Assembly: GCA_028819575.1 (NCBI GenBank)
Contig: JAPPLB010000173.1
Coordinates: 1 to 64,000 of the forward strand
Direction: 5' to 3'
From: Bryobacterales bacterium
GTDB taxonomy: Bacteria > Acidobacteriota > Terriglobia > Bryobacterales > UBA6623
DNA: 64,000 bases
This document shows, piece after piece, positions 1 to 60,443 of this stretch. The translations under genes were made by a program, and so were the position numbers. The notes beneath the pieces are model-generated. The model worked only from the letters and a program-made list of their open reading frames with translations. It had not been told where the DNA came from and ran no database searches. Each line of letters opens with the position of its first letter. Position 1 is the stretch's first letter.

Positions 1-71
1 GCGGCTCGCGCCTCGTCCTGACGGCCCTCTCACCCACTTCGCCTCGCCGCGTGGTAAGAAATTCAGGCTAG
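1..71 (-). repeat. PAL-A palindromic repeat, partial copy cut by window edge
   Basis: This stretch matches the end of the PAL-A repeats at 4774-4954 and 51475-51659, read on the minus strand. It carries the shared block around CTCGTCCTGACGGCCCTCTC and ends in a degenerate terminus followed by CTAG at 68-71. It lies downstream of the msbA-like gene. Bases 72-156 between the repeat and that gene's stop show no recognisable feature. Confidence 0.8.
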
Positions 72-3002: not shown

Positions 3003-3046
3003 AGCAGAGAGGCACTGAATGCCCGCGAAACCGGCGCAGGCCCGCT

Positions 3047-3210
3047 TAGCAGCCCGTGGCAAAAGCCCCGCTGCATTCAAGCGGCGATGCATCCCGGCTG
3101 AACTGTGTTGCTCCTCGGTCGAATATGTCCAATATGCTCCCTCGTCGCGCCTTATCAGCCGGGTGCCTCGCCGCTCTCGGTGCTACGCGGGGTTTCACCA
3201 CGGACTGCTA
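3047..3210 (-). repeat. PAL-B2 inverted-repeat element (MITE-like)
   Basis: A ~164 bp element with imperfect inverted ends, AGCAGCCCGTGGCAAAAGCC on the left and the complement of AGCAGTCCGTGGTGAAACCC on the right, flanked on both sides by TA (3047-3048 and 3209-3210). A second, damaged copy lies at 47691-47828 in the opposite orientation, matching through the interior including GAGGAGCAACGCAGTTCAGC. It has no credible gene of its own. Its right end supplies the TAG stop codon of the downstream aldolase gene (3208-3210), and its left part holds an ATG in frame with the GT9 gene. The TA flanks suggest IS630/mariner-type mobilisation, which is inference. Confidence 0.8.
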
Positions 3211-4773: not shown

Positions 4774-4954
4774 GCCTGCATTTCTCACCACCCGACGGTC
4801 GAAGCACGCGATACGGCCCCATGACTTCGTTGCGCTTGCTTGCCGTGCTCAACGTACTGTTCAAGTACGCCTGCGCGCGCCAAGCGGCGCGCGCCTCGTC
4901 CTGACGGCCCTCTCACGCACTTCACCTCGCCACGTGGTGAGAAAAGCAGGCTAG
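4774..4954 (-). repeat. PAL-A palindromic repeat at a 3'-3' gene junction
   Basis: A full-length copy of 181 bp read on the minus strand, with ends GCCTGCATTTCTCACCAC and (complement) a GAGAAAAGCAGGCTAG terminus. The two arms are similar along much of their length, so the element could fold into a long hairpin. The centre holds a smaller GC-rich hairpin (GCGCGCGCCAAGCGGCGCGCGC type, split around 4875-4894). It fills the gap between two convergent genes, which suits a bidirectional terminator or mRNA 3'-end stabiliser; this is inference. Confidence 0.88.
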
Positions 4955-8321: not shown

Positions 8322-9770
8322 ATGAGATTTTTAACAGCCCGTGGCAAAAGTCACGCAGGCGGCGTTACGCGCCCCGGGGCCAATGACGTAACGCGTGGCC
8401 ACTCCAGGAACGCGCCGCCGCGCTCTCTTCTCAACCGGCCGGAGGAGGCGCGTAACCCTTCGGGCGACGGACGTTTGCGCTCGTCGACTTTGTCGTTCGT
8501 CGGAGGAGATCACCCGGATCGCCATCCTCCTCACTCCGCGCCGAGCGACCACAGGAGCCCGCCGCGCCTTCCACGGGACTTTTGCCACGGGCTGTTAGCC
8601 TCGGCGCTCATCTTCGGCCTGCTGATTCCGTCCGCGCTCATCGCCCAGGACAACACCCTGACCCCGCAGGAGGTCGAGCAGGGTTGGATTCTGCTCTGGG
8701 ACGGCAAGACCGAGTACGGCTGGGAATGGCACGGCGACGCCCGCTGGAAGATCGAGGACGGCGTTCTCAAGTCCGACGGCGGCGGCTACGGTTGGCTGGG
8801 CACGACCAGCAGCTTCGGCGATTTCGAGCTCAGCCTCGAATTCCGAACGCCCGCCGACGGCAACAGCGGAGTGTTCCTGCGGTCGGCCCGCCTCGGCGCG
8901 CCTCACCAGACCGGCTATGAGCTGCAGATCTTCAATCGCCAGCCGCAGGGCTACAACACGGGCAGCCTCGTTTTCTACGTCAAGACGCAACCGGCGGAGT
9001 TCATCGGCGGGCAGTGGAACCGTTACCATGTCCGCGCCGTCGGCAGCCGCTTCGTCGTGCGGCTCAACGACCGCGAGGTGCTCGACGCCAGCGACTCGTC
9101 CCACGCGGCCGGCGTGATCGGCCTGCAATACAACGAAGACAAACCGATCGAGTTCCGCAACATCAAGCTGCGACCGCTCGGCCTCTCTCCGCTCTTCAAC
9201 GGACAGGACCTGAGCGGCTGGCAAAAGGTCGACCGTCCGAACCGCGACGACGTGCACGAGTGGTCGGTCCGCGACGGCATTCTGCATGTCGAGAAGGGCG
9301 CCGGACAGCTCGAAACGGTAAAGGAATTCAAGAACCTCGTGCTGCAGCTCGCGATCAAGACGAATCCGCCGTCAGCCGACCATCACCCCAACAGCGGCGT
9401 TTTCTTCCGCGGCGAGAAAGGGGTCTTCTGGAGCGGCTACGAGTCGCAAATCCGCAACGAGTTCCGAAACGGCGACCGCTCACAGCCCCACGACTTCGGC
9501 ACCGGCGGACTCTACTTCTATGTGCCGGCTCGCCGCGTCATCCCCAACGACGGAGAGTTCTTCCATAAGACCGTGGTCGCCTACGAACGTCACCTCGCCG
9601 TCTGGATCAACGGCACCCAGACCGCCGACTGGGAAGACCCGCGTCCCCCGGGCAACAACGCCCGGCGCCAGGCCCGTCTCGCGCCCGGAGTCATCAGCCT
9701 GCAAGCCCACGACCCGACCACGAACCTCGATTTCAAGGACATCCGCGCCGCCGAGTTGGACGAACGTTAG
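8322..9770 (+). CDS. Secreted double-DUF1080 (3-keto-disaccharide hydrolase-like) protein with repeat inside signal peptide
   Basis: Two DUF1080 domains follow each other (about residues 108-290 and 293-480), each with the GWxxxxG and NSGVF(F/L)R hallmarks of this concanavalin-like family, which includes 3-keto-glycoside hydrolases. The N-terminus is abnormal. MRFL is followed by about 88 residues encoded by the PAL-B1 repeat, then by ASALIFGLLIPSALIAQ. Removing the repeat, including one copy of the duplicated TTA, restores a standard signal peptide, MRFLASALIFGLLIPSALIA. The frame stays open through the repeat. Either the protein is made with an 88-residue insertion, or translation starts at an internal codon such as a TTG inside the repeat. 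A fragment of a similar gene's end lies at 10842-10905. Confidence 0.85.
   Translation: MRFLTARGKSHAGGVTRPGANDVTRGHSRNAPPRSLLNRPEEARNPSGDGRLRSSTLSFVGGDHPDRHPPHSAPSDHRSPPRLPRDFCHGLLASALIFGLLIPSALIAQDNTLTPQEVEQGWILLWDGKTEYGWEWHGDARWKIEDGVLKSDGGGYGWLGTTSSFGDFELSLEFRTPADGNSGVFLRSARLGAPHQTGYELQIFNRQPQGYNTGSLVFYVKTQPAEFIGGQWNRYHVRAVGSRFVVRLNDREVLDASDSSHAAGVIGLQYNEDKPIEFRNIKLRPLGLSPLFNGQDLSGWQKVDRPNRDDVHEWSVRDGILHVEKGAGQLETVKEFKNLVLQLAIKTNPPSADHHPNSGVFFRGEKGVFWSGYESQIRNEFRNGDRSQPHDFGTGGLYFYVPARRVIPNDGEFFHKTVVAYERHLAVWINGTQTADWEDPRPPGNNARRQARLAPGVISLQAHDPTTNLDFKDIRAAELDER
8332..8597 (+). mobile_element. PAL-B1 element inserted in frame in a signal-peptide coding region
   Basis: An element of about 264 bp with near-perfect 19-21 bp inverted ends (AACAGCCCGTGGCAAAAGTC and its complement), flanked by TTA/TA duplications at 8331-8333 and 8595-8597. 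It has no transposase. It shares ends and most of its interior with the copy at 47168-47490. In the frame of the host gene it has no stop codon and encodes a basic, Pro-rich peptide ending RDFCHGLL. The two TTA codons are exactly 88 codons apart, so the host frame is preserved. TA duplication suggests mobilisation by an IS630/Tc1-type transposase in trans; this is inference. Confidence 0.85.
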
Positions 9771-10720: not shown

Positions 10721-10841
10721 CCCCCAACAGTTACGATAAACGTAATGCCCCGGTGATGCAATACGACGCAGGAGAGGCAGCTCCGTGGGAACCTGCCAAA
10801 GGCCAAACCGACCAACAGGCGAGCAGCGCCGGAGTGCTCTG

Positions 10842-10905
10842 AGTCATCAGCCTGCAAGCTCACGGCCCGACGACGAACCTCGATTTCAAGGACATCCGCG
10901 CAGTG
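10842..10905 (+). pseudogene. Remnant of a DUF1080 gene 3' end
   Basis: About 60 bp nearly identical to positions 9690-9750, the end of the intact DUF1080 gene. It encodes VISLQAHGPTTNLDFKDIRA against VISLQAHDPTTNLDFKDIRA in the intact gene. An in-frame TGA precedes it and the frame diverges afterwards, so it is not functional. The rest of the gap to 11160 holds no recognisable gene. Confidence 0.8.
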
Positions 10906-22838: not shown

Positions 22839-23043
22839 CTAACTTGCTTTTCTCACCACGCGGCGAGGTGAAGTGCGTGAGAGGGCCGTCAGGACGAGGC
22901 GCGAGCCGGGCGGAGGAAAAAGGCGCGTGCAGGCCTACTTGAACAGTACGTTGAGCACGGCAAGCAAGCGTCGCGAAGGAAAAGCGAAGTCCTGGCGGTC
23001 GTATCGTGTGCTTCGACCGTCGGGTGGAGAGAAAGGTAGGCTA
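22839..23043 (+). repeat. PAL-A palindromic repeat, variant centre, at a 3'-3' junction
   Basis: A 205 bp copy with slightly degenerate ends (AACTTGCTTTTCTCACCACG on the left). The usual GC-rich central hairpin is altered to contain GGGCGGAGGAAAAAGGCGCG, also seen in the 30050 copy. It fills the gap between the second LRR gene and the convergent DUF1552 gene. Its last bases, CTA at 23041-23043, form the TAG stop codon of the DUF1552 gene. Confidence 0.85.
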
Positions 23044-24354
23044 AACGATCCAGTTCAACTTCTTGCTCGCTGACGGGAACTTGTCGATTCTCGTTTTCAT
23101 GACCTCGCTGGCGAGCGTCAGATAGAGGTCCCCTACGGTGCCGGTCGTCTTCGTGTGCAGGCCCCTCTTCAGGTCGCCGGCCCCTCCTGCGGCGATCACG
23201 GCCAAACCGCTGTTCTTGTGAGCATTCGCTTCCGCATGCTCGTGCACGAACATCAGACAGGTGTGATCCAGTAACGTCCCGTTACCCTCCGGTATGGATT
23301 TCAGCTTCGCCAGCAGGTAGGCGAACTCCTCGACGTGCCAGCGATTGATGTCCCTCAACACCCGCTGGCCCTGCGGAGTTTCAACGTCGCCATGCGTGTA
23401 ACCGTGGTGCCGCCGGGCGGTATGCCCCAGCCACGGGAAGCGGGAGGTCCCTTGGCACTTCGTCAGCATGTACGAAGCCACGCGTGTCTGGTGGGAAGCC
23501 AGGGCATGAACCATGAGGTCCGTTTGCAATTTGGCGATACGCGGCCAGTCTTTGAGGTCTCCGCCCTCGGGAGGACGTTCGACGACTTGGCGGTATTCGG
23601 GCGGGAGACTCACGATCGATCGTTCGAGGTCTCGCAGCGAGGTGAGGTATTCGTCCAGACGGTTCTGGTCCTGGCGCCCGAGGTTGTGCTTCAGGCTTTG
23701 CGCGTCATCCTGGACTGCGTCCAATACACTCTTCTTCTGCTGGATCCAGTCTTCGTCTTTCGTCCCGAACAGCCGGTCAAACAGCCTCTGGGGAATCATC
23801 TCCGGGGGAAGAGGGCGATCACGGTCGGCCCAACTCAGATTGCGCTGAATGCTTTCCCCCAGCGACTCCTGGCAGACGCCGATCTGAAGAGAGCGGAAGC
23901 GGGATTCGTTCCCGATCTCGGATGCGATCACTTGGTCAATCGAGGGCGCCCCGGCTCCACGCCCGGTAAACGAGGTGCCCGAAACGAGACCGCTCATGGA
24001 ACGGTGATGGTCGTTCCCGGGTCCGGGCATGCGTGCCGCGGGATTGTCGAGCCCGGTGATGACGTGAATGTCGTCGCGGAACGGCGCCAGCGGAGACAGA
24101 CACGCCGTCATCCGATACTCATGCCCGGCTTCGCGGGGGATCCAGAAACGCTCCAGAATCCCGTTGCCGTTGAACCACAACACGAATCTCGATTCGATGT
24201 TGCCGTCCGCGCCGAGGCTCTTGGCGGCGGCATAGGCCGTGCCGCTCGAGTTGAACATCGCTTCGAGAGCAGGCAGCCCGATCCGGACCATCGCGCCGGA
24301 GAGGCCTACCCCTCTCAGGAACGTGCGGCGAGAAAGTGCGCTCTTTGAACTCAT
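23041..24354 (-). CDS. DUF1552 Tat-exported protein
   Basis: 437 residues starting [20 protein letters not shown], a twin-arginine signal, followed by the DUF1552 landmarks [22 protein letters not shown] and [11 protein letters not shown]. These proteins are exported, of unknown activity, and typical of Planctomycetota, Verrucomicrobiota, Myxococcota and Acidobacteriota. They usually sit beside a DUF1592/DUF1588 cytochrome-type protein, but none is adjacent here. The only CxxCH protein in the window is the unrelated 1607-residue one at 39116-43939. The stop codon is supplied by the PAL-A repeat end. Confidence 0.88.
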
Positions 24355-30025: not shown

Positions 30026-30049
30026 CCGGCTCCGGCATGACCCGAACGA

Positions 30050-30234
30050 GCCTGCATTTCTCGCCACGTTGCGAGGCGAAGTGGGTGAGAGGGCCGTCAG
30101 GACGAGGCGCGAGCCGGGCGGAGGAAAAAGGCGCGAGCAACATGGCCCTTGAGGCTTTTCACGAATCACGAGACACGAATCACGGCCCTTTTTCGCGTGC
30201 TTCGGCCGTCGGGTGGTGAGAAATGCAGGCTGGT
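30050..30234 (+). repeat. PAL-A palindromic repeat carrying the start of the next gene
   Basis: A 185 bp copy with clean ends (GCCTGCATTTCTCGCCACG and GGTGGTGAGAAATGCAGGCT). The centre is a variant containing GGGCGGAGGAAAAAGGCGCG and short TCACGAA-type repeats (30159-30185). Its right end contains both a Shine-Dalgarno-like GGTGAG and the ATG used by the nicotinate phosphoribosyltransferase gene. Confidence 0.88.
30212..30225 (+). promoter_or_regulatory. Ribosome binding site and start codon inside the PAL-A end
   Basis: GGTGGTGAG followed by AAATG places a GGTGAG motif (30215-30220) just upstream of the ATG at 30223. An in-frame TGA lies 6 bases before that ATG, and conserved NAPRT sequence ([12 protein letters not shown]) begins nine codons after it. 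This ATG is therefore the only plausible start, so the repeat end supplies the initiation signals. Confidence 0.7.
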
Positions 30235-38860: not shown

Positions 38861-38878
38861 CGCAATCCCGCCCGCGTT

Positions 38879-39119
38879 GCCTGCATTTCTCCCCTCGTAT
38901 CGAGGCGAAGTGGGTGAGAGGGCCGTCAGGACGAGGCGCGCGCCGCTGGGGGCAAGCGACATGGCCTATCACGAGTCTCGGCCTCCATGCAAGCCGCCCT
39001 GGATCAACGGCCGTACCGCCTGCCCAGGTTTTTGGGTCACGAATCACGAGTCACGAAACACGAATCACGGCCTTTTTATCGCGTGCTTCGGCCGTCAGGT
39101 GGGGAGATGTGCAGGCTAG
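38879..39119 (+). repeat. PAL-A palindromic repeat with inserted short tandem repeats, at a 3'-3' junction
   Basis: A longer copy (241 bp) whose normal second half is expanded. The insertion contains TCACGAATCACGAGTCACGA-type short repeats at 39036-39071. Both ends are recognisable (GCCTGCATTTCTCCCCTCG and GAGATGTGCAGGCTAG). It lies between two convergent genes, and its CTAG end gives the stop codon of the 1607-residue protein. Confidence 0.85.
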
Positions 39120-42100
39120 TTCACTGCGCCGCGCTGCAGCTCCGCCTGCTTCAGCACCCACTGCCGGATCACCTGATATCCCGCATCCTCGGCCTCGTAG
39201 CGCTGTCCGCCCTGGTGCCCGTCCTCTTCCCCGGTTTGGATGTTCAGCGGCTTGCGCAGAAACTTGCTGCGCTCCACGTCACGCAGGTCGACACGCTGCT
39301 GCATCTTGCGGTAGTTGTCGAGCAACTGGTCCGGCGGGATGTACCCCACCGCGTCCGGCGGATCCAGATACAGCGTCGGCACGCGCCCCGGCACGCCATG
39401 GCAGGAGATGCAAGCCTTGGCGTCGGAGGAGTTGATCTTCGTCATCTCCGCGAAGACATAATCGCGAAAGTGCAGGATGTCGTCGATGAACTCCTCCGTT
39501 GATTCCAATCGCCGCGCGTCCGAACCCTGCGGCGGGCCTTGCTCGGTGATCAGTTTCCCGAGTTGCTCGCCGTAGACCGTGTCATCGCTGTTGAGAATGT
39601 TCTGGATCCGCTTCTGCAGCCGGGGAAGCGGCTCCTGCTCGACATAAGCCGCGAGCGCCTTGCGTACTTCCGGATTGCGCCGCAACGCCGTCTTGTTCGC
39701 CAACTGCACCGCCAGCTCACGGGCCTCTTCCGGCTGATCCGCAGCGAACCAGGTGTTGAACATTCGGATGATCTTGTCTTTGGTCGTCGTGATCGGGTCG
39801 ATCACATCGACGCCAAGCTCGTCTCTGGCGAATAGCGAGCCGCTGCCGTCGTCGGGTGTCAACTTGATGTAGTCGATCCCGAAAATGTAGTTCGGCTCGG
39901 CCTCAGGGTTGGCGCCTAGCATTGTGACCGTCAGTCGGTTCTCGCCCTTCTTGAACTCATGCACGCCCAATGACACGGGGCCGCTCGGCGTCAGGTCCGG
40001 CTTGTAGAAATCTATCGGCTCGCCGATCTCTGTGTCGTTCAATGCAATCTGGACCGTGCCCATCTCACGGTCATACAGAAACGCCGTGAGAATTTCGTGC
40101 GGACCGGCCTCGGGCGAGTCCAAAACCAGGGTCAACCTTGCGCCGGGCACTCCTTCGCGCCACCAGAGAATCGTGTTCTTGCTGGTCAGCCCGTTCGGGA
40201 CCATCTGCTCCGTCGTGCGGCCGAAGGTCAACTCGGTCACCTTCAGGTCCTCTGCTTCGACGGCGCCCTCGACCGCCTCTTCCATCGACAGGCCGCCTTC
40301 CTGATACGAAACCATCCACTCCGTCGAAGGGAGCCAGAAGCGCTCGTTCTCATCCACAAGCTCGAACGCCGTGTTGCGATGAAGCGTCCGGTTTTCACCC
40401 AGGACGCGCCCCAGGAGAACAGCCTTTTCGTCTTCCCCGGCAGAATCCGTGGAACCCTCGTCCGGCGCCGGCCTCCCGAGCAAGCCGGCGATTGCAGCCG
40501 ATGCCCGCGAGCGCTCTTGCCGTCGGCCCGAAATCAGCAGCCGGTAGAACTCCTGCTCCTCACGCTCGCTGACGCCGTCGAAGTTCCACTTTACCCGCGC
40601 CATGAAGTTCGTCAGCGCTTCCGCATCCTTGTCACGGCCGGCCTCGATAAAACGATCGATCTTCGCCAGCAACTGCCGCAGCGTGTTCACGTCTCCCGGC
40701 AGCGACAACGATTGCGGATTCACCAGAGCCCGAGAAGCGACCGCCACCATGTCGAGGTCGCCTGTCGTGAGCAAGTCGAGCAGGCGCTCTTCGAGCGGTG
40801 CATATGCGACATTCGCCGCCGCTTCGAGAGAGATCTTCTTCCAGGGAATCGCTCCGTCGGCCTCACGATCGTAGGTGTCGAGAATGACCTTCCCGAAGAA
40901 CTCCGTGCTCCCCGGCGTCGAGTAGCCCAACTGCCCCGGCCCGCCGTCGTTGGCACGCTCCTGGAAGTGCGACGCTGCCACCGCCGTAAGCCGGCGGTCG
41001 AACAGCACTCGCTCTTCGTCACCCGCCTCTTCGCGGCGCTCGGCCAACGTCTCGTACAGGTCGGACAGCTCGGGATACTGCTGATCGATGTTCTTGCCGC
41101 CCGTCTGGTTTGCGATCTGCCCGTTGACGATCAGCATCGAAACCGTCGAGTACCGTAGCGCCATCTCCGCCGCCGCGTTCGGTTCCTCTCGCAACAGCGC
41201 ATCCGCCCAAGCGCGGTTCACCGCCTCTCGAAGCGGCGGATTCCAAACCCACCAGTGCCACGCCGCCTTGAAAGCGAAAGCCCTGGTGCCCGCATATGAA
41301 TCCGACATCCCCGCCGCCAGCAGGCGCGCAAGCTTGGTCAGATCCACCTTGCTTTGCGGACCCGCCAGGTCAACCCTCGTCACCAGAGCCTGCAAGATCG
41401 CTTGCCGTCCCCGGGCGCCGGCCGTTGCATAGGCCTCGAACGTCTCGTTCCAGCCCACGTCATCAAGCAGCAATTGCCGCAACGACCAGAACGCCGCCTC
41501 GCGGCACATCTTCACCGGATCATCAAGATGCTTGATCAGCATCGGCACGCTCTCCGGAGCCAACGAGCCGCCCATCCCCAGCAGCGCCTGGTACCTCACG
41601 TAGGCGTGCGTGCTTTCCGCCGCCTCCATGAGTTCGTCCGTCCACGCCGCGTCTCCCGAAACCTGATGTCGTCGGACTCGGCTCAGCGTTTCCAGCAAGG
41701 TCGGCTCCGCGATCGATTGCTCCGACGACTGCTCGCTTTGGCGCGTCTCGACGGGATAAAGCCGGCTCAGTGCCCGGATCACGTACGCCGTCGTTACGAA
41801 GCCGGTCTGCGCCGAGTGGTTCCAAAGCCCGTACTCGTATTGATCATCAAGCAACCACTTCGTCGCCCTCTGTACCAGTGGATCATCCGCTCCGTGTCCT
41901 GCCGCTTCCAGCGCAATCAGGGCCACCGCCGTAGGAGCCGGGTCGCTTGGCTCATCCAGCCGCTTCCAGGTTTTGCCGTCATCCCGCAGAGTGCCCAGAT
42001 CGAACCCCCAGCCGCCGTCTTCCTGCTGCAAGGCGCTGAGCCGTTCAAGGTCCGTCTTCACTTGCGCCGTGAACGCAGCCTGAAACGCCTGGGCTTCGGC

Positions 42101-43939
42101 AACCCGAGCCTTCGACCCGGTCAGCTCGCTGACGATCTCCGGATAGTTCTCCGGCCAAAGTTGATGAAAAAATTCGATCCGGTGCCCCAGGTCGTCGCTG
42201 ACCTTCATGCCGTCGTTGCCGGTTGCCATGATCTTCTTCGCCTTCTCCTCCAAGCCGAAGAAGTAGCGCGGATCATTCGTATCCTGCCAGGCCCGCTCCA
42301 GAATCTCGGCCGCGAACTTGAACACCACGTTCGGTCCGAAGTTCGATCCCTTGCCCGCCGCATTGATGCCTTCCGGGTCATTCGTCTGCAGTACGTAGTT
42401 CGCGGTGCGGCGCTGCTGATAACGGTGCAGTCGCTTCGGCCGGACCGTCCGCTCGTGCAGAACGATGTTCCGTCCCGCCACGCGGCTCCCTGCCGGCGCA
42501 TCGCCCAGATCGTTGGGGGCAAGGCTCGTATTCACCGCCGCGTCCTTGAGCTTGATCGACGGCCGCAAGCTCTCGTACATCGTGTTCACCAGCCGTCGCC
42601 AGTTCTGTATGGTGCCGGAGGGCCGATAGCCGCTGCGGAAGGCGTCCGCCACGCCCCACACGCCGCTCTGCGTGTGGCAGCTCATGCAGTTCTCGCCGAA
42701 CAGGCTCGTGCCGTCGCGTACACGCCGGTCAACGGCGATGTTGCGCGGCCGATGGATCAACCAGGCATCGATCTCGGCAAGATGGTAATAGATCGCTTCT
42801 TCGACCGCGCGGACGGGGTCGTCGTACGGTGCCGGATCGATCAGCCGTACCTCCAGTTCGTAGCCCGGCTGATTCGCCTCCACCCGCAAGTAGTACACCC
42901 CGCCCGGCTCGATCTTGCGGGTGGCGAACGAGCGGAAGTTCGTATCCTGCTGATGAATGCGCTCGTTCACGTCCCGTCCTTCGTAGTAGCTGAAGACGGC
43001 AACCGGACCGGGAATCACCTGCGCTGGCGGGTGCACGTACGGAATCGGGTTGGCGTTGCCGAAGTTCTTGCGATCGGGCATTTCACGCGGCTCCAGGTCC
43101 TCGGGGCCGGGCGTGCCGGGTTGATAAACCCGAATCCGAGCGCTGACCACGGGCTCGATCAACTGCAGGTTCGCGGTGAAGATCTTCGGTTTCGCCCCCT
43201 GGTACTCGATCCGATACCAGTCGTCGGGCGACTTGCCTGAAACCGTGTTGTTGTAATACTCCAACTCATCGGCGCCGCCGAAGACTCGTAATACCTGGTC
43301 CTCGTCGCTTGCCGCGAACGGTAAATGGATCGCCAGTTCCGGCGTGCTGTTCGGTTCGGCTTCGAGAACGATGTCGTCCTGGTGCAAGGCATCGATCGGA
43401 CGCAGTGAGACCGTGATCCCCACATCCGGGATGATGGGCGTGCTGGCGGGCATCGGCGTCGCCAACTGCGCCAGGCCCGTATCGCGCGGGATCTCCGATA
43501 CCTCGACACCGCCCTCCGTGACGGTTTCTGCAGTGAGTCGATACGAGCCTGCGGCGGGCGCACGGTAGACCAGGTAAACATCCGGATCCAGTTCATGAAG
43601 CGTCTTCTGCCAATCTGCCGTTGACGAGGTGTGCAGGTCTCCCCGGTCACCCTCGAAAGCCCATTCCGGCAGGTCCGGCCCTTCCCACCGCACCTTGATC
43701 CGGCCGTTCGCCGGCAGCTCTTCGGGGTCGTCAATGCTGACGTGAATCTCCAGCGCCTGGCCTTCATCCAGCGTCCAGGAGTGTGTCCAAAAGCCGTCGA
43801 ACGAGAGGCTCTCCTCGAACGAAGCGAAGCTCACGGGCGGCGAAGCCGAACTGCCCGCCGCAACCACCGCGGCAAGCACGATAACGGCGGCCATTCCAGC
43901 AGACAACCTGAACAAGGGCGCTCCAGAACCGGTAGTCAT
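39116..43939 (-). CDS. Very large secreted two-heme-motif protein with toroid and HEAT-like parts
   Basis: 1607 residues. A signal peptide-like segment (MAAVIVLAAVVAAGSS) begins the protein. Residues ~40-370 are beta-rich, with prepeptidase-like EAEPN and DDWYRIEY features. A CMSCH heme motif lies at 418-422. An alpha-toroid region around 630-725 has LSALQQEDGGWGFD and YGLWNHSAQTGFVTTAYVIR. HEAT-like helical repeats start near 775 (STHAYVRYQALLGMGG). A beta-rich carbohydrate-binding-like part appears around 1300-1430, and a second heme motif CISCH lies at 1510-1514 near the C-terminus. CxxCH motifs imply covalent heme c, so it may act in extracytoplasmic electron transfer linked to substrate binding. 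Its stop codon comes from the PAL-A repeat. No cytochrome-maturation genes are nearby. Confidence 0.75.
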   Translation of the reverse strand: MTTGSGAPLFRLSAGMAAVIVLAAVVAAGSSASPPVSFASFEESLSFDGFWTHSWTLDEGQALEIHVSIDDPEELPANGRIKVRWEGPDLPEWAFEGDRGDLHTSSTADWQKTLHELDPDVYLVYRAPAAGSYRLTAETVTEGGVEVSEIPRDTGLAQLATPMPASTPIIPDVGITVSLRPIDALHQDDIVLEAEPNSTPELAIHLPFAASDEDQVLRVFGGADELEYYNNTVSGKSPDDWYRIEYQGAKPKIFTANLQLIEPVVSARIRVYQPGTPGPEDLEPREMPDRKNFGNANPIPYVHPPAQVIPGPVAVFSYYEGRDVNERIHQQDTNFRSFATRKIEPGGVYYLRVEANQPGYELEVRLIDPAPYDDPVRAVEEAIYYHLAEIDAWLIHRPRNIAVDRRVRDGTSLFGENCMSCHTQSGVWGVADAFRSGYRPSGTIQNWRRLVNTMYESLRPSIKLKDAAVNTSLAPNDLGDAPAGSRVAGRNIVLHERTVRPKRLHRYQQRRTANYVLQTNDPEGINAAGKGSNFGPNVVFKFAAEILERAWQDTNDPRYFFGLEEKAKKIMATGNDGMKVSDDLGHRIEFFHQLWPENYPEIVSELTGSKARVAEAQAFQAAFTAQVKTDLERLSALQQEDGGWGFDLGTLRDDGKTWKRLDEPSDPAPTAVALIALEAAGHGADDPLVQRATKWLLDDQYEYGLWNHSAQTGFVTTAYVIRALSRLYPVETRQSEQSSEQSIAEPTLLETLSRVRRHQVSGDAAWTDELMEAAESTHAYVRYQALLGMGGSLAPESVPMLIKHLDDPVKMCREAAFWSLRQLLLDDVGWNETFEAYATAGARGRQAILQALVTRVDLAGPQSKVDLTKLARLLAAGMSDSYAGTRAFAFKAAWHWWVWNPPLREAVNRAWADALLREEPNAAAEMALRYSTVSMLIVNGQIANQTGGKNIDQQYPELSDLYETLAERREEAGDEERVLFDRRLTAVAASHFQERANDGGPGQLGYSTPGSTEFFGKVILDTYDREADGAIPWKKISLEAAANVAYAPLEERLLDLLTTGDLDMVAVASRALVNPQSLSLPGDVNTLRQLLAKIDRFIEAGRDKDAEALTNFMARVKWNFDGVSEREEQEFYRLLISGRRQERSRASAAIAGLLGRPAPDEGSTDSAGEDEKAVLLGRVLGENRTLHRNTAFELVDENERFWLPSTEWMVSYQEGGLSMEEAVEGAVEAEDLKVTELTFGRTTEQMVPNGLTSKNTILWWREGVPGARLTLVLDSPEAGPHEILTAFLYDREMGTVQIALNDTEIGEPIDFYKPDLTPSGPVSLGVHEFKKGENRLTVTMLGANPEAEPNYIFGIDYIKLTPDDGSGSLFARDELGVDVIDPITTTKDKIIRMFNTWFAADQPEEARELAVQLANKTALRRNPEVRKALAAYVEQEPLPRLQKRIQNILNSDDTVYGEQLGKLITEQGPPQGSDARRLESTEEFIDDILHFRDYVFAEMTKINSSDAKACISCHGVPGRVPTLYLDPPDAVGYIPPDQLLDNYRKMQQRVDLRDVERSKFLRKPLNIQTGEEDGHQGGQRYEAEDAGYQVIRQWVLKQAELQRGAVN

Positions 43940-45565: not shown

Positions 45566-47554
45566 CTATCGACCCTCTCCCAACTCCCGCAGATTGGTGC
45601 GGATTTGCTGTGCGAAGGGGTCCTGCGGCCCCAGGGTGCTTTCTATGATGGTGAGAGCCCTCCGAAGGAGTTGCCTGGCCGTGGAGTAGTCGTTTCTTTG
45701 AAGCGCGGCGTAAGCAAGGCTGTACACCGACTCGGCGACATCAGGGTGATGTTCGCCGAACACGCCTTCTCGGATCCGCAATGAGCGGCGGAACAGCGGC
45801 TCGGCGCCGGACAAGTCTCCCCGCATCAGCAGGACCGTGCCCAGGTTGTGGAGGCTCATGGCCACGTCGGGATGGTCGGCGGGCAGCGTCTTTTCTCGGG
45901 TTGCCAGCGCGCGGCGGCCGAAACGCTCGGATTCATCGAGACGCCCGAGTTCGCGCAGAGTGACTCCCAGATCGTCCTGCACTGCGGCCGTGGCGGGGTG
46001 CTCCGCTCCCAGCGTCCCTTCGAGCAAGGCGGCGGCTTCGCGTTGTTGAGGTTCAGCGGCTCCGAAGTCGCCCTGGGCGGCCGCCAGCAAGCCGAGGCGG
46101 TTCAAGGTGAGGGCGTAGCGGGGATGCTCGCGGCCGAGAGTTCGTTGCAAAAGAGAAGCCGCTTGGTTGTACTGCATCCGGGCAGCCGCCGTGTCGCCTC
46201 GGGCCTCATCCAACCGGGCCAACAACACCAACGTATCGGCAAGGGCGGCGTCATCCTTCGTTGCGGCCTTCTCTTGGAGCGAGAGCGCTCGGCGGGCGAA
46301 GGTCAACGCAGCGTTGAGATCGCCCTTTTCGAGAAGCAAGGAGCCAAGGTTCGCCGATGTCGTTGCGAGCCGGGGATTCTCGGAACCAAGATGCTTCTCG
46401 AACGTCTCCAGTGCGCGCCGCAGATGCCTTTCGGCTTCTTCGTATTTCCCTTGCTCCCGCAGAACGCCCGCGAGATTGTTCAGCGTCGAGGCGACCTCAG
46501 GGTGTTCTGAACCAAAGGATTTCTCGTATCCGGCCAGGGCTTCGCGATAAAGTTTCTCCGATTCGTCCGGTCTGCCCCGCGATTCCAGCAGGAAGCCGAG
46601 ATCATGGGCGCTGGCGGCCCGGTTGGGATCGTCGGGGGTCAGCGTTTTGCGCCGGATGGTCAGGGCTCGCCGATAGTGAGGCTCGGCCGCGGCAAGATCG
46701 CTCTGGGCTTCGAGAGCGGCCGCGAGCTTCTTGAGCAAAGCGGCGGCAACCGGCGTGGCTGCTTCCCCGTGGGTCTTGATTGCCCGCTCGTACAGCTTGA
46801 CCGCTTCCCGTGTATCGCCGCTCGCAACCAGCAGATCCGCTAGACGGACAAGGGTTTCCTGTATCGAAGCATCGGTAGCGTCGAATGACTTTTCGCGAAT
46901 CGCGAGGGCTTCGCGCAGCAGTGGCTCCGCCTGCTGATAGTCCTGACGGGATTCGAGAACGCCGGCTAGCGCCAGCAAGCTGTCAGCCACCTTGGGGTGA
47001 TCCGAACCCAGTTCTTTTCGCCGCTCGGCGAGCGCTTGGCGGTAGAGCGGTTCGAACAGGCGGCTGTCGCGCGGGTCTTGCTCGAACAGCGGTTCGGTTT
47101 CGGCCGCAGGTTCATTCGGCGCCGCTGCTAGCGGCGCCAGGCAGACGAGCGCGATCACCACGATGCCTAGCAGTCCGTGGCAGAAGTCCCGTGGAAGGCG
47201 CGGCGGGCTCCTGCGGTCGCTCGGTGCGGAGTGAGGAGGATGGTGATCCGGGTGATCTCCTCCGACGAACGACAAAGCCGACGGCCTTGGGCGGTCGACT
47301 CCGTGGTCAAGCTGGGCAGCAAGCTCAGAACCGCCGTTGGAACAAAAAACGTCCGTCGCCCAAAGGGGTACGCACCGCTTCGCCCGGTTGCGCGGAGAGA
47401 GCGGCGCTGTGTTCCTGGGGCGGCCACACGTTACGCAATCGGCCCCGGGGCGCGTAACGCCGCCTGCGTGACTTTTGCCACGGGCTGCTATGCGCAACGG
47501 CGTCAATTCGCTGCTGTGAGCTATGCCTGCGCGCGCCGATTCCTCGTATGCCAC
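45566..47554 (-). CDS. Secreted TPR-repeat protein with repeat inside signal peptide
   Basis: Up to 662 residues, mostly kinesin-light-chain-like TPRs of 42 residues (A..Y..ALAIREK type). The N-terminus is disrupted by the PAL-B1 repeat. LRIA is followed by ~107 repeat-encoded residues ending DFCHGLL, then GIVVIALVCLAPLAAAP. Without the repeat, a TTG start at 47495-47497 would give MRIGIVVIALVCLAPLAAAP, a good signal peptide. The frame is open throughout, and a GTG at 47554 could add 19 residues. It may be made with a 107-residue insertion or start inside the repeat. The TPRs probably serve protein binding, perhaps with the co-encoded HupE-like protein. Confidence 0.82.
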   Translation of the reverse strand: MAYEESARAGIAHSSELTPLRIAARGKSHAGGVTRPGADCVTCGRPRNTAPLSPRNRAKRCVPLWATDVFCSNGGSELAAQLDHGVDRPRPSALSFVGGDHPDHHPPHSAPSDRRSPPRLPRDFCHGLLGIVVIALVCLAPLAAAPNEPAAETEPLFEQDPRDSRLFEPLYRQALAERRKELGSDHPKVADSLLALAGVLESRQDYQQAEPLLREALAIREKSFDATDASIQETLVRLADLLVASGDTREAVKLYERAIKTHGEAATPVAAALLKKLAAALEAQSDLAAAEPHYRRALTIRRKTLTPDDPNRAASAHDLGFLLESRGRPDESEKLYREALAGYEKSFGSEHPEVASTLNNLAGVLREQGKYEEAERHLRRALETFEKHLGSENPRLATTSANLGSLLLEKGDLNAALTFARRALSLQEKAATKDDAALADTLVLLARLDEARGDTAAARMQYNQAASLLQRTLGREHPRYALTLNRLGLLAAAQGDFGAAEPQQREAAALLEGTLGAEHPATAAVQDDLGVTLRELGRLDESERFGRRALATREKTLPADHPDVAMSLHNLGTVLLMRGDLSGAEPLFRRSLRIREGVFGEHHPDVAESVYSLAYAALQRNDYSTARQLLRRALTIIESTLGPQDPFAQQIRTNLRELGEGR
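47168..47490 (-). mobile_element. PAL-B1 element inserted in frame in a signal-peptide coding region
   Basis: A 321 bp insert between TA dinucleotides at 47168-47169 and 47489-47490, with ends matching the 8332 copy. Its coding-strand interior matches that copy in ARGKSHAGGVTRPGA and in SFVGGDHPD plus HPPHSAPSD and SPPRLPRDFCHGLL, with a longer variable middle. 321 is divisible by 3 and the frame has no stop codon. It is oriented the same way relative to the host gene as the other copy and is read in the same frame. Confidence 0.85.
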
Positions 47555-47566
47555 TGCCCTTCAAGT

Positions 47567-47690
47567 CTAGCCTGCATTTCTACCTGTCTGACGGGCGAAG
47601 CACGCAATACGGACCGTCATGGCTTCGTGGCGCTTGCTCTCCATGCTCAATGCAGGATCAGGTACACCTCCACGCGCCGTGCGGCCTGCA
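47567..47690 (-). repeat. PAL-A repeat, truncated copy nested with PAL-B2
   Basis: It starts CTAGCCTGCATTTCT (47567-47581) and follows the reverse-orientation PAL-A sequence through TGCTCAATGC to about 47690. There it is cut by the PAL-B2 copy, whose TA begins at 47691. This suggests PAL-B2 inserted into PAL-A. Confidence 0.75.
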
Positions 47691-47828
47691 TAGCACCGTG
47701 AACAGCGCTGCGCCCGGCTGACAAGGCGTGACGAGAGAGCATATTGGACCTGTTCGACCGAGGAGCAACGCAGTTCAGCCGGGATGCATCGCCGCTTGAA
47801 TGCGGCGGGGCTTTTGCCACGGGCTGCA
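47691..47828 (+). repeat. PAL-B2 inverted-repeat element, damaged copy
   Basis: It matches the 3047-3210 element in reverse. The interior around GAGAGCATATTGGACCTGTTC and the intact right end GCTTTTGCCACGGGCTGC are clear. The left end (TAGCACCGTGAACAGC) is degenerate. The following stretch to 48024 shows no gene and is the upstream region of the pentapeptide-repeat gene. Confidence 0.78.
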
Positions 47829-48024
47829 AGGCGGCAGCAGAGGTTCGATGCAACCGTCGAGTGTTTCCACTCGGACCCATAGAATGTTCGGCTGGTGGAA
47901 CGAATCGTGATTTTGCTATCCGTTGTGCATCGTGTTGCCATAAAATTGGCTTGGTTACAGAACGATGTCGCTTGCGGCATGGCCGGGGGCGGATGGCGTT
48001 ACCTTCCTTGAAGGGATTTACGGA

Positions 48025-51474: not shown

Positions 51475-51659
51475 CTAGCCTGCATTTCTCACCACGCGGC
51501 GAGGCGAAGTGCGTGAGAGGGCCGTCAGGACGAGGCGCGCGCCGCTTGGCGCGCGCAGGCGTACTTGAACCGTACGTTGAGCACGGCAAGCAAGCGCAAC
51601 GAAGTCCTGGCGGTCGTATCGTGTGCTTCGGCCGTCGGGTGGTGAGAAATGCAGGCTAG
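51475..51659 (+). repeat. PAL-A palindromic repeat, reference copy
   Basis: A clean 185 bp copy bounded by CTAG at 51475-51478 and 51656-51659, with perfect 18 bp ends GCCTGCATTTCTCACCAC and complement. The inner parts of the arms are also similar when one is reversed. A GC-rich hairpin (GCGCGCCGCTTGGCGCGC) and a GTACTTGAACCGTAC hairpin lie in the middle. It sits in the divergent gap between the RidA-like and S9 peptidase genes. Confidence 0.9.
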
Positions 51660-57529: not shown

Positions 57530-57595
57530 GCCTGCATTTCTCACCAAGCGGCGAGGCGAAGTGCCTGTGGGTCACGAGACACGAGTCACGAAGCG
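57530..57595 (+). repeat. PAL-A repeat, left end only
   Basis: GCCTGCATTTCTCACCAAGC and the following GGCGAGGCGAAGTGC match PAL-A, then it breaks into TCACGAGACACGAGTCACGA-type short repeats like those in the 38879 copy. The right end is missing. Confidence 0.75.
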
Positions 57596-60152: not shown

Positions 60153-60335
60153 TAGCCTGCATTTCTCACCACGCGGCGAGGTGAAGTGCGTGAGAGGGCC
60201 GTCAGGACGAGGCGCGAGCCGCTTGGCGCGCGCAGGCGTACTTGAACAGTACGTTGAGCACGGCAAGCAAGCGCAACGAAGTCCTGACGCTCGTATCGTG
60301 TGCTTCGACCGTCGGGTGGTGAGAAATGCAGGGTA
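60153..60335 (+). repeat. PAL-A palindromic repeat
   Basis: A full copy with ends AGCCTGCATTTCTCACCACG and GGTGAGAAATGCAGGG, and the GC-rich and GTACTTGAACAGTAC hairpins in the centre. It lies between two same-strand genes. The 156 bp before it, from 59997, show nothing else. Confidence 0.88.
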
Positions 60336-60443
60336 GCCGCTTAGAACGACAGACCTGTTACTCGTTTACCGTTCACAGGGCCGGCCCAATGTCGGATTTT
60401 CGTAGGGGACGCTACGATGGAGTGTTCCGTCCGTTCTACTAGT

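Follow-up and report, generated by a model that had tools for sequence, protein, structure and literature searches.

PAL-A elements in the window

The analyzed window, a stretch of 64,000 nucleotides that begins at base 1 of contig C122 of a Bryobacterales genome, contains a family of palindromic repeats, here called PAL-A. All nine places listed in the first-pass annotation bear a copy or a fragment of this family, in both orientations and between predicted genes:

51475–51659, plus strand: full copy, a 177-bp element at 51479–51655 with exact ends and CTAG targets at 51475–51478 and 51656–51659
60153–60336, plus strand: full copy, 96% identical to the copy at 51475–51659, flanked by TTAG on the left and, on the right, by GTAG (a TTAG altered at one base)
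4774–4954, minus strand: full copy in reverse orientation, with CTAG on the right and a decayed left flank
22839–23044, plus strand: 206-bp variant with a direct CTAA/CTAA target duplication
30047–30233, plus strand: variant with a TCACGAATCACGA-type core
38876–39119, plus strand: 244-bp variant with a TCACGAATCACGA-type core
47567–47685, minus strand: degraded fragment (77% identity) adjoining a copy of a second repeat family, PAL-B
57530–57567, plus strand: left-end fragment of 38 bp
1–71, minus strand: copy cut by the contig start

In two of these copies, the right target tetramer includes a stop codon. The right CTAA of the 206-bp variant (TTAG on the minus strand) contains the stop codon of the minus-strand gene 23041–24354, and the right CTAG of the 244-bp variant contains that of the minus-strand gene 39116–43939.

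The lengths of near-full-length copies peak at 176–177 bp, with a mode of 177 bp. Terminal inverted repeats are present at both ends (CCTGCATTTCTCACCA / TGGTGAGAAATGCAGG). Their conserved part is 16 bp long (CCTGCATTTCTCACCA) rather than the 18 bp first reported, and inside the ends the arms are only approximately 70% complementary. The pairing of the ends was borne out by folding of the DNA at 51475–51659, which gave −72 kcal/mol (z = −9.6), a value that none of 200 shuffled sequences equaled. The CTAG previously regarded as the boundary of the arms lies outside them: the outer four bases have the form YTAR and represent the duplicated target, and PAL-A proper begins at CC, inside this tetramer.

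The interior of the element is variable. The variants at 30047–30233 and 38876–39119, together with others in the window's own genome (G000) and in another genome of the same genus (G002), combine the ends and outer arms of PAL-A with the core of TCACGAATCACGAGTCACGA-type repeats, which suggests that interiors have been exchanged between families. Minimal elements of 34 and 39 bp consisting of the two PAL-A ends only were also observed in the window's own genome (e.g., C122:82124–82157 and C14:6561–6599), some of them with YTAR flanks. Since one 39-bp form recurs almost unchanged at a second place, the ends alone may suffice for movement.

Target duplication

According to base counts of the flanks, Y-T-A-R stands immediately before the aligned PAL-A termini. 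Non-palindromic flank tetramers were repeated directly in 13 of 126 element pairs, compared with a mean of 3.7 and a maximum of 11 in 5,000 permutations, while inverted non-palindromic flanks remained at the level of chance (5 vs. 4.7 expected). An inverted repeat would place CTAA opposite TTAG; the direct repetition of the flanks therefore indicates that the outer tetramer is a target duplication. The initial idea of a TA duplication was abandoned in favor of YTAR after the flank counts and the permutation. Of the 94 near-full-length copies, only 39 have YTAR on both sides and 28 have identical flanks; thus, many copies are old or decayed.

Abundance and spread

A search for the 18-base terminus with up to two mismatches returned 1,092 matches in the window's own genome (5.37 Mb, 200 contigs) and none for the reversed control. 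The detailed statistics are based on 1.5 Mb of stretches from this genome and 0.39 Mb of G002. In the former, BLAST identified 250 copies and fragments, that is, one per 6.0 kb, covering 2.1% of the bases; extrapolation to the whole genome gives about 900 copies and fragments, or ~2% of the DNA. PAL-A is therefore not confined to the window, and its ends pair, contrary to both observations that the first-pass annotation had named as refuting it. The repeats also occupy many contig ends in the draft assembly.

Within the genus, termini numbered 1,092 in the window's own genome, 557 (291/266) in G002, and 18 in G001; elsewhere in the order they were few and scattered. The copy number follows the lineage. 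Plasmid and phage records were searched as well and contained no sequence similar to PAL-A. A copy with 89% identity was observed close to a contig end in a genome from another family of the class (G209:C105:113–296), where either horizontal transfer or bin contamination would account for it.

Empty sites and recent movement

Comparison of G000 with G002, whose flanks at the compared loci are mostly 90–96% identical, revealed orthologous loci that are filled in one genome and uninterrupted in the other. Such loci were found in both directions, and several of them retain a single copy of the target. For example, the G002 counterpart (C115) of the copy at 60153–60336 is empty and reads CTACTTAGCCGC, with one TTAG in place of the TTAG...GTAG surrounding the element. 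The copy at 51475 is also missing at its orthologous locus in G002; however, the bases around the target are altered there (TTTTCTCGCC), so that the footprint of a single target is less clear at this site than at other loci. At least one older insertion (C30:17077) is common to both genomes. The orthologous empty sites within the genus indicate that insertions are recent, and the presence of both differing and shared insertions indicates that PAL-A moved after the split of the two genomes and also before it.

Position relative to genes and stop codons

With genes called by a simple hexamer predictor of our own rather than taken from a curated annotation, 57% of YTAR sites lie within predicted genes, whereas only 17 of the 250 PAL-A copies lie mostly within genes. 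At 53 termini, the adjoining gene ends exactly on the final three positions of the target tetramer; every other offset was represented by five termini or fewer. The same pattern is repeated in G002, with 11 termini at this offset. Because the duplication copies the original target, a stop codon within it must predate the insertion, and two empty sites (C122:75016 and C30:22424) show the pre-existing stop codon directly. PAL-A landing on a stop codon would be harmless, since the four duplicated bases re-create the stop. Twelve of the 53 termini show CTGA rather than YTAR, which may reflect either a looser target or a later change.

A preference for stop codons was considered and rejected, as the occupancy of YTAR sites containing a native stop codon (15.1%) was equal to that of sampled YTAR sites outside genes (14.0%; Fisher p = 0.66). 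The simplest reading is that insertion into YTAR is random, gene-breaking insertions are purged, and the survivors persist alike in intergenic sites and at stop codons. The rarity and clear definition of YTAR allow filled sites to be scored against the full set of available ones; approximately one in seven of the safe sites sampled is filled, and a neutral survival model of transposon load can thereby be tested directly. The presence of TAA or TAG within a 4-bp duplication turns gene ends into safe sites.

The PAL-A terminus also offers an ATG (ATGCAGG followed by TAG), to which 19 of the genes predicted in the sampled stretches of the window's own genome were extended. This extension is likely an annotation artefact, and the terminus can mislead the calling of start codons.

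Hairpin structure and its possible role

The long hairpin proposed in the first-pass annotation agrees with the folding energy and, to some extent, with covariation. In an alignment of 23 diverse copies from four genomes, 94.7% of the cells of the consensus structure were paired, and 15 pairs showed double changes compared with 7.0 in shuffles, although part of this covariation separates subfamilies and relatedness inflates the counts. Within the terminal 16 bp, most changes affect one arm without a matching change on the other, and the ends vary largely independently; homogenization of the arms driven by the hairpin was therefore rejected for this region.

An RNA role of the hairpin is possible. 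The hairpin could benefit the host as a terminator, an mRNA-stabilizing structure, or a processed RNA, and copies would then be selected for this role besides being mobile. The covariation of interior pairs across subfamilies is in line with such a role, as is the position of the copies, which lie at a median distance of 45 bp from stop-codon ends vs. 132 bp from start-codon ends and fill 45 of 150 convergent gaps between genes, a higher share than the 75 of 423 tandem gaps. However, neutral survival explains this distribution, and stop-codon sites are no fuller than other non-coding sites. One-sided changes dominate the ends, and presence or absence of the element varies between sister genomes. 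In addition, no terminator-like T-tract was found at the 51475 copy, a search of Rfam yielded no family matching PAL-A, and the covariation itself is inflated by relatedness. We therefore regard selection for a host-beneficial hairpin as unlikely. It is doubtful that PAL-A is more than a parasite, with a covarying hairpin that would act as a transcription end or mRNA stabilizer and a stop-codon-compatible YTAR target that would have given many genes of the genus a uniform 3′ hairpin.

The probable IS1380 partner

A transposase gene associated with the same ends, a search for which had been suggested in the first-pass annotation, was found in the same genome within two intact IS1380 elements. 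Their uninterrupted IS1380-family transposase genes (L077 and L078) matched Pfam PF13701 with E = 3e-148 and 8e-147, and the NCBIfam model transpos_IS1380 was matched with 385 bits against a cut-off of 180. Both elements are ~1.7 kb long and have the ends CC[CT]GCATTTCTCACCAG / CTGGTGAGATATCCGGG, which the 16-bp termini of PAL-A match; one is flanked by direct CTAA/CTAA and the other by CTAG/CTAG. Copy L078 and the PAL-A copy at 51475 share 96% identity across the 26 bp that run inward from the target site; they are otherwise unrelated. Since the similarity is confined approximately to the ends, a simple internal loss from the intact copies does not account for PAL-A, and this origin was rejected. 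PAL-A is not itself an autonomous IS1380 insertion sequence: in agreement with the earlier statement that the repeat carries no gene, the ~177-bp element encodes no transposase.

Ends of the form CTAG followed by CCCG[CG]ATTTCTCAC also occur on IS1380 relatives in Acidobacteriota, Proteobacteria, Planctomycetota, and Armatimonadota. In G002, which has fewer termini than the window's own genome, the IS1380 matches are all broken. A single-contig genome of the same family (G008) contains 23 IS1380 transposase matches, yet only one PAL-A-type terminus; thus, IS1380 abundance alone does not yield a MITE. Two further genomes (G025 and G042) harbor other short elements with PAL-A-type ends, the interiors of which are partly or wholly different.

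Nature of PAL-A and its probable mobilization

Judging from the sequence comparisons, PAL-A is very probably a miniature inverted-repeat transposable element (MITE) mobilized in trans by a DDE transposase of the IS1380 family. The MITE half of the first-pass interpretation is thereby retained and tied to IS1380 by common ends, target duplications, and empty sites. The features of a MITE are present in PAL-A, namely the target duplication, empty orthologous sites, small size, and many copies (~one per 6 kb). We infer that the resident IS1380 transposase, and not a close relative since lost, is the mover, and likewise that it acts in trans.

Two other sources of mobility were weighed. A MITE of the IS630/Tc1-mariner type with TA duplication, to which the TA within the PAL-A boundaries and the IS630-like DDE_3 remnants in the genome might point, is very improbable: the duplication comprises the four bases of YTAR, the best DDE_3 locus (L071) lacks the PAL-A ends that both intact IS1380 copies possess, and no IS630 element with such ends was found. 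The REP-like half of the first-pass interpretation, under which a REP/BIME-type palindrome would be spread by a RAYT (Y1 tyrosine transposase), can be dismissed almost entirely even though PAL-A is palindromic, intergenic, very abundant, and hairpin-folding, as Y1_Tnp (PF01797) found no match in the genome while control genomes were positive, and PAL-A is ~180 bp long with inverted repeats at both ends, IS1380 ends, and a 4-bp target duplication (the CTAG), in contrast to the REP, defined as a 20–40 bp palindrome tagged with GTAG or CGTC at one end (PMC3733652), so that it fails this definition in palindrome size and one-end tag as well as the Y1 criterion.

For an IS1380-driven MITE, the following course of events is proposed. 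The transposase would recognize the 16-bp ends (CCTGCATTTCTCACCA) and place PAL-A in a 4-bp YTAR target, which would be duplicated in the process. Selection would then purge insertions within genes, and PAL-A would persist in non-coding YTAR sites and at native TAA or TAG stop codons within YTAR, where the duplication would re-create the stop.

Comparison with known elements

The Correia/NEMIS elements of Neisseria have TA as their target and are associated with the IS630-like transposase family. They resemble PAL-A in being short, non-autonomous, intergenic elements of high copy number with inverted ends and a long hairpin, whereas PAL-A combines a YTAR target with IS1380 ends and reaches several times as many copies; more than 120 copies of Correia/NEMIS are present in N. 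gonorrhoeae (review PMC10969869). The ERIC elements of Enterobacteriaceae, with 711 copies in Photorhabdus luminescens (PMC10969869), are likewise MITEs that reach high hundreds of copies in a genome of several megabases; however, their sequence is unrelated, and PAL-A shares its genome with an IS that has matching ends. MITEAba12 was also assigned to a parent IS, ISAba12, through common 16-bp ends and target duplication, but has a 9-bp duplication, a length of 113 bp, and at most 22 copies per genome (PMC6382973).

IS1380 elements share the ends and the transposase family with PAL-A and are autonomous, unlike PAL-A, which lacks a transposase. The IS1380 group described here generates a 4-bp YTAR duplication, compared with the 5-bp direct repeat of IS1247, a family member of 1,672 bp with 16/13-bp inverted repeats (PMC3281130). 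IS1380 transposases serve as an outgroup for the piggyBac superfamily (TTAA) (PMC10813416). The 4-bp duplication of piggyBac elements is also centered on TA, and TTAA is among the YTAR forms used by PAL-A; however, piggyBac is eukaryotic, uses mostly TTAA, and is related to PAL-A via the transposase family only.

Mobilization of MITEs by a resident IS that has matching ends is well known (MITEAba12, PMC6382973; review PMC10969869). IS1380 goes unmentioned in the 2024 review of prokaryotic MITEs (PMC10969869), and the open papers searched contained no previous MITE of the IS1380 family; a literature search with the PAL-A terminal sequence gave nothing relevant among the matches listed. The notable features of PAL-A are its copy number, its IS1380 parent family, and its stop-codon-compatible target. 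It is a very dense bacterial MITE family linked to IS1380.

Other repeats in the window

A second, rarer repeat family, PAL-B, with the ends CAGCCCGTGGCAAAA, is located at 3042–3191, 8332–8598, 47167–47490, and 47685–47834 of the window. It is often preceded by YTAR, and approximately 28 copies were counted in the 1.5 Mb sampled from the window's own genome; no PAL-B transposase was found. A 66-bp direct repeat, which does not belong to the PAL-A family, occurs at 9683–9748 and 10836–10901; its two copies are 92% identical and lie 1.15 kb apart.
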